Below, piece after piece: positions 17,316 through 46,530 of a stretch of DNA of 48,005 nt (its first letter is position 1; the number at the start of each line of letters is the position of its first letter). Below the pieces are notes generated by a model that searched no databases, was not told the origin of the DNA, and worked only from the letters and a program-made list of their open reading frames with translations. Position numbers and translations under genes: made by a program. This DNA comes from Acidobacteriota bacterium (lineage in GTDB: Bacteria; Acidobacteriota; Thermoanaerobaculia; Gp7-AA8): NCBI GenBank assembly GCA_016184115.1, contig JACPDH010000100.1, forward strand, positions 1 through 48,005, given 5' to 3'.

Positions 17316-18634
17316 GCGGGAACGCTGGGCGCGACACGATCGTAGCGCCGGCGACGGCGCCCGGCCGGAGCGCGATCGCCGTCGTTCGAATTGACGGGCC
17401 CGACGCGATTAGCATCGTCGAAGCGCTTGCCGGGCGCGAGCTCGAGACGAGGCGCGCGACCCACACCTCACTACGGGATGGCAACGAGGCGATCGATGAC
17501 GCGGTCGTCGTCGTTTACCGCGCGCCGTCGTCGTACACCGGGAATGACCTCGTTGAGGTGAGTCTTCATGGCAGCAGCTACCTCGTCGGCAAGCTGATTG
17601 ACGTGGTGCGCCGAAGCGGCGCGCGCATCGCGGAGCCGGGAGAGTTTACCGAACGAGCGGTGCTGAATGGCAAGCTCGACCTGGTGCAAGCGGAGTCGGT
17701 TGCCGATCTCGTCGACGCGCGCGCGGCGATGCAGTCACGCCTTTCGCTTCGCAACCTCAGCGGCGAATTGAGCCGCGCGTCGGAGTCGATGAGGGCGACG
17801 CTCCTCGATCTGGTTTCGCGGTTCGAGGCGGCGCTTGATTTCGCCGATGAGGGCTACGAGTTTGTGGGGCGCGCCGAGGCCCGGAGCCTGCTCGAATCTC
17901 TTCTCGGGGAGGTCCGCGAAACGGCGGCAACATGGAGCCGCGGGCACGCGATCCAGGCGGGACTCACGGCGGTGATCCTCGGGCTGCCAAACGCAGGCAA
18001 ATCGACGCTTCTCAATTTCCTTTGCGGAACCGAGAGAGCGATCGTGACGCCTGTTGCGGGCACGACGCGCGATCTGCTGAGGGAGACGGTCGATCTGGGA
18101 GGCGTCCCTGTTACGTTCGTCGACACCGCAGGCCTTCGCGCGAGCGGAGACGCGATCGAGGAGATCGGGGTGGGGCGTGCGCGCGAAGTGGCACGCACGG
18201 CTGACCTTGTGCTCTACCTGATCGACTCGAGCCAAGGGGTGACCGACGAGGACCGTGCCGAGCTCGGGCAGCTCCGCGACCCGATCGTCGTCTTTACGAA
18301 GAGCGATTTGGCGGAAGGGGGAGAAGGGGCGATTTCGGTGCTGGCCGGCCGGGGAACGAAGGAGCTTCTGGCGCGCCTCGACGCCGAAGTGAATGAGCGA
18401 TACGCGATGGCGGAGGAGTCTCCGACCGTGGTGAATCAGCGGCAACGGGGAGCGTTTGACGCATGTGCCGAGGCGCTCGAAGGAGCGCTGGCCGCGTTGC
18501 GAAGCGAGGCGAGCGAAGAGTTCGTCGCCGCCGACCTCCGGCGAGCGGCGAGCGCACTCGGCGCGCTGACCGGAGCGATTTCGAGCGACGACATTTACCG
18601 CGAGATCTTCGGGCGCTTCTGCATCGGCAAATAG
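17312..18634 (+). CDS. mnmE: tRNA modification GTPase MnmE
   Basis: A 440-residue GTPase that works with MnmG to place the carboxymethylaminomethyl group on U34 of certain tRNAs. The N-terminal tetrahydrofolate-binding domain shows DTIVAPATAPGRSAIAVVR and SLHGSSYL. The inserted G domain starts near residue 215 with P-loop GLPNAGKST, then TPVAGTTRD, DTAGLR and the TKSD motif in VFTKSD. The C-terminus is the diagnostic FGRFCIGK with the catalytic cysteine. It starts with GTG overlapping khpB, and 50 bp downstream, containing two parS sites, lies its partner mnmG. Confidence 0.96.
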   Translation: MSGNAGRDTIVAPATAPGRSAIAVVRIDGPDAISIVEALAGRELETRRATHTSLRDGNEAIDDAVVVVYRAPSSYTGNDLVEVSLHGSSYLVGKLIDVVRRSGARIAEPGEFTERAVLNGKLDLVQAESVADLVDARAAMQSRLSLRNLSGELSRASESMRATLLDLVSRFEAALDFADEGYEFVGRAEARSLLESLLGEVRETAATWSRGHAIQAGLTAVILGLPNAGKSTLLNFLCGTERAIVTPVAGTTRDLLRETVDLGGVPVTFVDTAGLRASGDAIEEIGVGRAREVARTADLVLYLIDSSQGVTDEDRAELGQLRDPIVVFTKSDLAEGGEGAISVLAGRGTKELLARLDAEVNERYAMAEESPTVVNQRQRGAFDACAEALEGALAALRSEASEEFVAADLRRAASALGALTGAISSDDIYREIFGRFCIGK

Positions 18635-18635
18635 A

Positions 18636-18651
18636 TGTTCCACGTGGAACA
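18636..18651. other. parS centromere site 1
   Basis: TGTTCCACGTGGAACA is a perfect match to the 16-bp palindromic parS sequence recognised by chromosomal ParB; with flanking A and T the palindrome extends to 18 bp. It begins one base after the mnmE stop codon. The cognate parA and parB lie 2.5-3.3 kb downstream. Confidence 0.92.
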
Positions 18652-18668
18652 TCGCTCGTTCCTGAGGC

Positions 18669-18684
18669 TGTTCCACGTGGAACG
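18669..18684. other. parS centromere site 2, abutting the mnmG start
   Basis: TGTTCCACGTGGAACG matches the parS consensus in 15 of 16 positions, the last base differing. It ends directly before the ATG of mnmG at 18685 and is spaced 33 bp (about three helical turns) from site 1 by start-to-start distance. Its GTGGA could also be the only ribosome-binding-like sequence for mnmG. Confidence 0.88.
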
Positions 18685-45074: not shown

Positions 45075-45653
45075 CTACGCCCAACTCATCGAAAACGTGC
45101 ACGAAGCGTCGCCGCGACACTGACAGGTGGTCTCGGTGACCTTCACGTTCTTGCCACCGAACATCGTCACGCACTGTTCGAAGAAACCGAACGCGCTCTC
45201 ACAGAAGACGACGCTGTAGCAAGGGTACTCGCGATAGATCATCTTCCCGCCGTTGTCGCCGGTCTGTTCGTACGCCGCCTCACCGAAGTCCTGGAAGCGG
45301 TCATGGAGCTTGACCGAGTTTCGGAAGAACTCGTGAATCGTCATCGCATTGACCATCGAGGTGACGTTCATCTTCGCGGAGTAACGGCCGAACTCCTTGA
45401 GCACGTCGGGCGTCTCCGCTCCGAAGCGCGCGACAAACGCGTTGTCGACGGCAATGAGGTCGCTGAACTCATACCAGTCAGACGCGAGGATGCCGCGCAG
45501 AAGCTTCCCCCGAGTGGGCTCGGGGAGCGACTCGACGATCGTGCGGCGGTCGATCTCGGGATGCACGTCCTTCAGCCAATCGAATCGGGAACGGATCATG
45601 CTTCCCTTGATCCTTCCGCCATCGAGCTTCTCTTTGCTTCCGGTTCGCAGCAT
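45075..45653 (-). CDS. V4R/TIGR02265-like ligand-binding protein
   Basis: A 192-residue protein. RSRFDWLKDVHPEIDRRTIVESLPEP is a helical N-terminus and ILASDWYEFSDLIAVDNAFVARFG a typical link, while the C-terminal part ends CESAFGFFEQCVTMFGGKNVKVTETTCQCRGDASCTFSMSWA. The CxC...C cluster and the overall pattern resemble the 4-vinyl reductase (V4R) sensor domain and TIGR02265/DUF2378 proteins, which bind small hydrophobic ligands; this is an inference from pattern. AGGTGAGG precedes the ATG. It lies upstream of the ATP-grasp gene, with which it is likely co-transcribed. Confidence 0.7.
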   Translation of the reverse strand: MLRTGSKEKLDGGRIKGSMIRSRFDWLKDVHPEIDRRTIVESLPEPTRGKLLRGILASDWYEFSDLIAVDNAFVARFGAETPDVLKEFGRYSAKMNVTSMVNAMTIHEFFRNSVKLHDRFQDFGEAAYEQTGDNGGKMIYREYPCYSVVFCESAFGFFEQCVTMFGGKNVKVTETTCQCRGDASCTFSMSWA

Positions 45654-45759
45654 CGGAACCTCACCTTTCAGGGACCTGGGGAGCGCTGATTGTACTTCGA
45701 CCCGCGCCCGCAGGTGTCGAGGAATCGACCGCGCTGCGAGCGACTTCCTCAGGTGCTAC

Positions 45760-45807
45760 GTACAGCTCCCCGGAAATTGGTGGCCACGAATTTCCGGGGA
45801 GCTGTAC
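45760..45807. repeat. 19-bp perfect inverted repeat between divergent genes
   Basis: Arms at 45760-45778 and 45789-45807 are perfect reverse complements (GTACAGCTCCCC... to ...GGGGAGCTGTAC), with a 10-nt loop that itself contains TGGCCA. Genes point away on both sides: V4R-like (start 45653, minus) and PilZ (start 45835, plus). It is therefore unlikely to be an ordinary terminator. It could be an operator, a REP/MITE-like element, or the joined ends of a lost transposon. Confidence 0.9.
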
Positions 45808-45834
45808 TAAGCTGTTCGCCGGAACTGCGAAGAG

Positions 45835-46530
45835 ATGGCTCCACCGGACAACACTTCGAGGCGTGCGACCAACAGGCTCACGTTCAAGATGCCACGCCCG
45901 GCACGCTTTGCGACGTTTGAGGTCGTGCTGGTCGACCTGAGCCTGAAGGGCGCCGGGATCCAACATCCGAACCAGATCCCACCCGGAACGCGCAGCACGC
46001 TTCGTTTCCGTCTCGAGCGCGAGTTTCATGAGCTCACGTGCGAGATCCGGCGTTCGAAGCTCCAGCTCGTGCGCCAGGGAGCGAAAACGCTTCAGATCTA
46101 CCGCTCCGGGCTCCAGTTCGTTGGACTCGAGGGGCAGACCGACACGATCAAGGAGGCGCTTCGCAAGCGTGTGCAGCGCGCGATCGCGCGACAGCAGGCC
46201 GACGCGTTCTCGAACGCCGAAGCGATGAACGGGATCGACGAGTCGAGCGGAGCCCTCTCGCTCGCCGCGCTCGCGAGCTGGATGGAGACGCGTCCCTATG
46301 TCCGCTGCGTGCTCGAGCGAAGCGGACGATGGAAGAACGACAAGGTCGACTCACCCGATCAGCCTGCAAACGGATTCACGGTCTCCGCCGACGAAGGAGA
46401 CAAGGAGATCGAACTGCTGCGCCGCGCCTTCGAAAAAGCGAACGAGGAGCAGCGCCGCCTCATCCGGGTCTTCGCCCAGATTACGCTCGCCGAACCCTCC
46501 GACGAGCCGCGCGGACGATACGAGCCGTAA
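45835..46530 (+). CDS. PilZ-domain cyclic-di-GMP receptor candidate
   Basis: A 231-residue protein with an N-terminal PilZ domain. The c-di-GMP motifs are RRATNR (RxxxR, residues 9-14 within the basic N-terminus) and DLSLKGAG (D/NxSxxG, residues 34-41). The rest is helical (TDTIKEALRKRVQRAIARQQADAF, LLRRAFEKANEEQRRLIRVF) and of unknown partner. A GAAGAG ribosome-binding-like sequence precedes the ATG. Together with the TPR-GGDEF protein 5 kb away it suggests c-di-GMP signalling in this organism. It is divergent from the V4R-like gene, and the inverted repeat lies 28 bp upstream of its start. Confidence 0.8.
   Translation: MAPPDNTSRRATNRLTFKMPRPARFATFEVVLVDLSLKGAGIQHPNQIPPGTRSTLRFRLEREFHELTCEIRRSKLQLVRQGAKTLQIYRSGLQFVGLEGQTDTIKEALRKRVQRAIARQQADAFSNAEAMNGIDESSGALSLAALASWMETRPYVRCVLERSGRWKNDKVDSPDQPANGFTVSADEGDKEIELLRRAFEKANEEQRRLIRVFAQITLAEPSDEPRGRYEP

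Follow-up and report, generated by a model that had tools for sequence, protein, structure and literature searches.

The palindrome at positions 45760-45807 is very probably the ends-only miniature of a non-autonomous, MITE-like element, i.e. a sequence of mobile origin that would have lost its interior. It was found in a stretch of 48,005 nucleotides, here called the window, where it separates two divergently transcribed genes. Among the origins that had been suggested from the sequence-only reading, transposon ends or a MITE-type palindrome are those that agree with the results: copies are dispersed in the genome, a relative has what looks like an empty site, and the sequence is identical to a predicted ends-only deletion product. 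In kind the palindrome is ordinary, a MITE deletion derivative, and it is not conserved at its site. It nonetheless provides a clean case in which a MITE-like ends-only product can be traced base by base to its parent, and in which an operator-looking palindrome between divergent genes would be a transposon scar.

Structure of the palindrome and its locus

The two 19-bp arms (45760-45778 and 45789-45807) are complementary without mismatch and enclose the 10-nt loop GGTGGCCACG, in which TGGCCA is contained. Sequence and repeat scan thus bear out the initial description of a perfect inverted repeat. In order, the palindrome reads GTACAGCTCCCCGGAAATT-GGTGGCCACG-AATTTCCGGGGAGCTGTAC. The loop consists of the 8-bp palindrome GTGGCCAC behind one G/G mismatch, and the entire 48 bp form a single palindrome with one mismatched position. 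The features of the locus are as follows.

45075-45653, minus strand: gene with a weak V4R domain, 192 aa, belonging to the host locus and not to the element (PF02830, E 4.6e-6, 27 bits, below the Pfam cut-off of 31 bits)
45757-45759, no strand: putative left target-duplication copy of 3 bp, now TAC and, before one inferred mutation, TAA (the site in the relative G001 reads GTGCTAAGCT; flank tally)
45760-45778, plus strand: left terminal inverted repeat GTACAGCTCCCCGGAAATT (with up to 3 mismatches allowed, 16 copies in the genome and 0 in the control)
45779-45788, no strand: 10-nt loop GGTGGCCACG, a probable deletion scar with the ends joined at the direct repeat GTGGCC/GGCCAC (48/48 identity to the C61 deletion product)
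45789-45807, minus strand: right terminal inverted repeat, reverse complement of the left one (repeat scan and genome arm search)
45808-45810, no strand: putative right target-duplication copy, TAA (removal scoring against G001 and flank tally)
45835-46530, plus strand: PilZ-domain gene, 231 aa, belonging to the host locus and not to the element (PF07238, 31.3 bits, above the cut-off)

In a repeat scan of the window, this palindrome ranked first among 15 short-range inverted repeats. At up to 3 mismatches the arm was seen twice in the window, with 0.02 matches expected. Folded as RNA with its flanks, the palindrome gave z-scores of -6.9 and -7.8 on the two strands, and none of 200 shuffles was as stable. 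The arm is not expected by chance in the window, in agreement with the view that the arms are too long and too exact for it. Elsewhere in the window, at 18636-18684, two copies of TGTTCCACGTGGAACA lie 33 bp apart, the second with one mismatch, directly past an ORF ending at 18634. This pair looks like parS centromere sites between mnmE-like and mnmG-like genes.

The PilZ gene starts 27 bp past the end of the palindrome, and the V4R-like gene starts 106 bp from it on the other side. The gene calls agree with the expected divergent pair, with the V4R match below the Pfam cut-off. A scan of 45600-45900 gave neither a terminator-like nor a sigma-70-like site. A hairpin that is very stable on both strands would suit an intrinsic terminator acting in both directions, or a role in RNA processing. 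However, the palindrome is upstream of both genes, has no T tract behind the stem, received no terminator call and is absent in G001, so that this function is extremely improbable.

Dispersed copies in the genome

The genome of origin is a draft assembly of 4,422,315 bases in 126 contigs. The arm was searched in it at up to 3 mismatches, which gave 16 matches, while the reversed pattern used as control gave 0. Most of these arms are paired as inverted repeats, 48-271 bp apart from outer end to outer end; we refer to them as F type elements. The shortest outer length, 48 bp, is shared by the palindrome itself (contig C4) and a copy on C91. Further copies measure 55 bp (C37), 221 bp (C89), 270 bp (C61) and 271 bp (C31 and C118), and in the copies on C45 and C125 only one arm is intact. 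Two variants of the end occur: GTACAGCTCC..AAATT on C4, C37 and C61, and GTACTGCTCC..AAATA on C31, C45, C89, C91, C118 and C125. The long copies (220-271 bp) are non-coding and MITE-like, and have their terminal inverted repeats in common with 45760-45807. The palindrome has 48 bp and full copies do not exceed 271 bp between their outer ends, which leaves no capacity to code for a transposase.

A genome search for the arm had been proposed along with the palindrome, and it revealed the multi-copy dispersal that a mobile origin predicts. A single copy conserved in position would have spoken against such an origin, and the opposite was found.

An apparently empty site in a same-genus genome

G001 is the only same-genus genome examined, and one locus was compared. 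It keeps the divergent V4R/PilZ pair, with PilZ 82% identical, the V4R-like gene syntenic and the DNA 82% identical through the V4R gene. The spacer in G001 reads AGGTGCTAAGCT (L143:1468), whereas the window reads AGGTGCTAC-(48 bp)-TAAGCT. The difference amounts to the 48-bp palindrome together with a putative 3-bp duplication of the target at C-TNA-G (TAA, with a mutation in one of the copies).

Five removals from the window were scored against G001. Removing 45757-45807, i.e. the 48 bp and one TNA copy, scored best with 44, the others reaching 31-40. The match spanning the resulting junction is 12 nt long. Shuffling the G001 spacer 2000 times gave no such match longer than 9 nt, and 9 nt was likewise the maximum among 75 alternative junctions. 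A global alignment of 1482 deletions of 45-57 bp to G001 placed the best ones at 45714-45767, away from the element, owing to the poor conservation of the remaining spacer. Altogether the site in G001 is apparently empty, as judged in this one same-genus genome from the fitting length and the 12-nt match across the junction.

This comparison bears on the suggestion that the palindrome is an operator, a dyad-symmetric regulator site controlling both divergent genes. Its perfect symmetry and its place between divergent starts are what such a site would show. On the other hand, G001, the single genome of the genus that was examined, has no such palindrome in the orthologous spacer; the same arms are present at unrelated loci; and the sequence can be fully accounted for as a deletion product. 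Operators are also usually shorter than a near-perfect symmetry of 48 bp. An operator for both genes is consequently a very improbable explanation, and the suggestion found no support. As a mobile insertion, the palindrome is probably neutral and without a regulatory role, and it may have been co-opted as an operator later.

Target site and flanks

For the flank tally, 13 F type copies with both flanks readable were used (8 from the own genome, 4 from G029 and 1 from G008), excluding the C45 copy and single-ended matches in G029 and G013. The outer base was C in 12 of the 13 copies on one side and G in 12 of the 13 on the other. The 3-bp TNA-like flank copies were identical in 6/13 and differed by one mismatch in 7/13; those of 45760-45807 differ at 1 of 3 bases. 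Thus, concerning the target-site duplication that had been suggested as a check, the C-TNA-G context is clear, but the 3-bp copies are identical in only 6/13. One-base differences were found on C4, C61, C89, C91 and C118 of the own genome, on C39 of G029 and on C41 of G008. Some of these copies look young, and the mismatch occurs even in C118, which is 97% identical to another copy.

According to PMC12016507, the IS1031 group of IS5 has a TNA target with a 3-bp duplication, which the putative target of the F type elements resembles. The ends are different: those of F type (GTACWGCTCCCC) are unlike the GAACCTGTC end quoted in the same paper (PMC12016507).

Probable derivation from a longer copy

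To obtain candidate deletion products, prefix and suffix joins of four full elements were made in both orientations and compared with the three miniatures. Read backwards, 45760-45807 equals the ends-only product of the 270-bp C61 copy at 48/48 bases. The junction lies inside the 6-bp direct repeat GGCCAC (reverse-strand reading), which gives 6 bp of microhomology. The C91 miniature fits the products of C118 and C89 at 45/48 with the junction in TGGCCA, and the C37 miniature fits C61 at 52/55 without clean microhomology. The miniatures on C4 and C91 differ in their end variant, so that the ends seem to have been joined at the inner repeat on at least two occasions.

The probable course of events is the following. 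The full F type element, about 270 bp long, non-coding and bounded by GTACWGCTCCCCGGAAATW inverted repeats, would insert at C-TNA-G with duplication of the 3-bp TNA. In the copy from which the palindrome stems, the direct repeats GTGGCC/GGCCAC that lie directly inward of the two ends would have recombined, either by replication slippage across the hairpin or by short-homology deletion, so that the interior was lost and the ends came to form the 48-bp hairpin; this may have happened before or after the insertion at the present site. A DDE transposase that targets TNA, be it IS5/IS1031-like or of another family, may have mobilised the element in trans.

Search for a mobilising enzyme

Searches for four DDE families and for Y1 yielded no transposase with F type ends, neither in the own draft assembly nor in the relatives examined. 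A transposase-sized copy was not assembled in the own genome either, where all F arms pair at 271 bp or less. PF13340 matched in 0/11 genomes, PF13586 in 0/6 and PF13358 in 0/1, this being the own genome. For PF01609, the own genome has one protein, with an IS4-type N-terminus and other ends; this family was matched in 6/9 relatives, none of the matches bearing F type ends. An IS5-type transposase, the mark of the IS1031 group, was not detected with F type elements, and because none was found, the DDE, IS1031-like mechanism is something that we infer. The element may be classed as MITE-like, and a putative IS1031-like mobilisation is suggested by the resemblance of the TNA target.

A REP/REPIN or TIRYT-type repeat, which would be moved by a Y1 tyrosine (HUH) transposase that acts on single-stranded hairpins, has to be weighed here as well. 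Y1_Tnp matches are present in the own genome (8), G013 (9), G029 (1) and G008 (1), the elements are hairpin-rich, and the paired TNA copies often differ, which would be compatible with a transposase that does not duplicate its target. However, the 19 Y1 loci in these four genomes contained no F element and no core, just two stray arm-like matches with 2 and 3 mismatches. At the 8 Y1/RAYT-type loci of the own genome, no F type element lies within about 1.5 kb. Several Y1 genes carry other repeats, e.g. inverted repeats of a GGGGTCA type, similar to the GGGGWSAS motif that PMC3733652 gives for TIRYT genes. The F element is symmetric with GTAC ends, as opposed to the GTAG or CGTC tag that published REPs have at one end only (PMC3733652). 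Finally, the symmetric C-TNA-G target, with outer C and G in 12/13 each, better fits double-strand (DDE) insertion. Mobilisation by a Y1 transposase is therefore unlikely, and the REP interpretation offered initially found no support in a one-sided GTAG tag or in a neighbouring Y1 gene.

The Y1 genes L172 (C117), L183 (C19), L185 (C59) and L186 (C34) bear repeats of their own, which are GGGGTCA-type inverted repeats at three of these four loci, and the C117 gene (L172) is surrounded by a GTAG-containing GC-rich repeat. In this they resemble the TIRtrons and REPtrons of PMC3733652.

Relatives, collections and literature

At up to 1 mismatch the end was found in 0/59 relatives, among which are 16 genomes of the same family and the one of the same genus. 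With 3 mismatches allowed, related ends were multi-copy in G013 of the same family (4 matches) and in G029 from another family of the class (12 matches), where three arm pairs have TTA/TTA flanks. A phylum-wide pattern search at 3 mismatches matched 54/396 genomes, mostly with one or two dissimilar matches. As real multi-copy families we took only those of the own genome, G013 and G029, plus one match in G008, which is a two-ended element. In these relatives (L123-L127 in G013/G008 and L117-L122 in G029), the F-type ends enclose different non-coding nested palindromes. Ends are thus kept and middles differ, the reverse of what the core family of the own genome shows.

The 291-bp element was unmatched in the phage and plasmid collections, and two patterns gave 0 matches in viral contigs. 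In the genome_contigs collection 16 stretches with a single match each, scattered over taxa, were read as chance. Rfam detected only tRNA in the window, and on nine full-element loci nothing at threshold, with three sub-threshold matches. A literature search returned no title describing the F type element or its core, which is weak evidence of absence as most subscription journals lie outside its coverage.

The core of the parent family

A BLAST search with the 291-bp stretch that contains the C31 element gave 57 matches in about 40 places of the own genome. The stretch was also matched in 6/17 same-genus or same-family relatives and weakly (E 4e-5 to 2.5e-6) in 4/42 more distant genomes. Most of the own-genome matches comprise the core alone, surrounded by at least five other kinds of ends that are mostly CTAG-bounded, examples being CTAGTGGCCTGTAAC, CTAGTGTTCTGTCCG, CTAGTGTAGTGTTTC, CTAGTGGCCTGTATT and CTAGGGAACCTCTG.

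For the core alignment, 22 of 26 distinct fetched places of the own genome were used, four broken or truncated copies being excluded. The aligned loci are non-coding elements of about 270 bp with six kinds of terminal repeats, and examples are:

L017:1508-1787, aligned core locus
L033:1469-1747, aligned core locus
L038:1452-1722, aligned core locus

RNAalifold predicted a three-way junction on this 22-locus alignment, with 82 pairs of which 60 have double-sided changes. In the two inner arms, with the ends excluded (48 pairs), 95.6% of 1031 cells were paired compared to 74.3% in shuffles, and 31/48 pairs had a double-sided change. The covariation of the inner arms was 0.507, compared to 0.151 in shuffles and at most 0.112 in slid versions. 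In one arm, the columns 72/102, 73/101, 75/99 and 77/98 are G.A or A.G in 22, 21, 22 and 22 of the 22 loci, and the pairs between them, 71/103 and 74/100, swap CG (12) for GC (10). These values are to be read with the provision that the structure was derived from the same alignment of related sequences, and that palindrome correction during replication could also keep the arms complementary.

Tentatively, and as a possibility that we do not favour, the core could mark an undescribed mobile group. In such a group, a single-strand-structured core, a three-way junction whose arms retain tandem G.A/A.G mismatches amid co-varying G-C pairs, would be kept by selection in place of the ends, under at least six sets of terminal repeats, and several transposases would be exploited by changing ends. 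If this is true, 45760-45807 would be the empty shell of a larger element group. A core with strong compensatory change under different ends raises the question of how a non-coding parasite makes use of a folded DNA or RNA. The parent core family is the more interesting part and merits a separate study.

Comparison with known systems

Bacterial MITEs are non-autonomous and bounded by terminal inverted repeats, with TA termini described as usual in PMC2229807. Like the MITEs of that account, F type elements are short, non-coding and dispersed, have terminal inverted repeats and a putative target duplication, and lack a transposase of their own (PMC2229807). They differ from them in being G+C-rich and largely palindromic and in having a C-TNA-G target rather than TA termini; in addition, 45760-45807 would be reduced to the ends alone (PMC2229807). 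REP/REPIN sequences with RAYT and TIRtrons with TIRYT, as described in PMC3733652, are likewise small palindromic repeats, and Y1 transposases are present in the genome studied here. In contrast to these systems, F type elements show no one-sided tag and no association with a Y1 gene, and both their ends and their target are symmetric (compared with PMC3733652).
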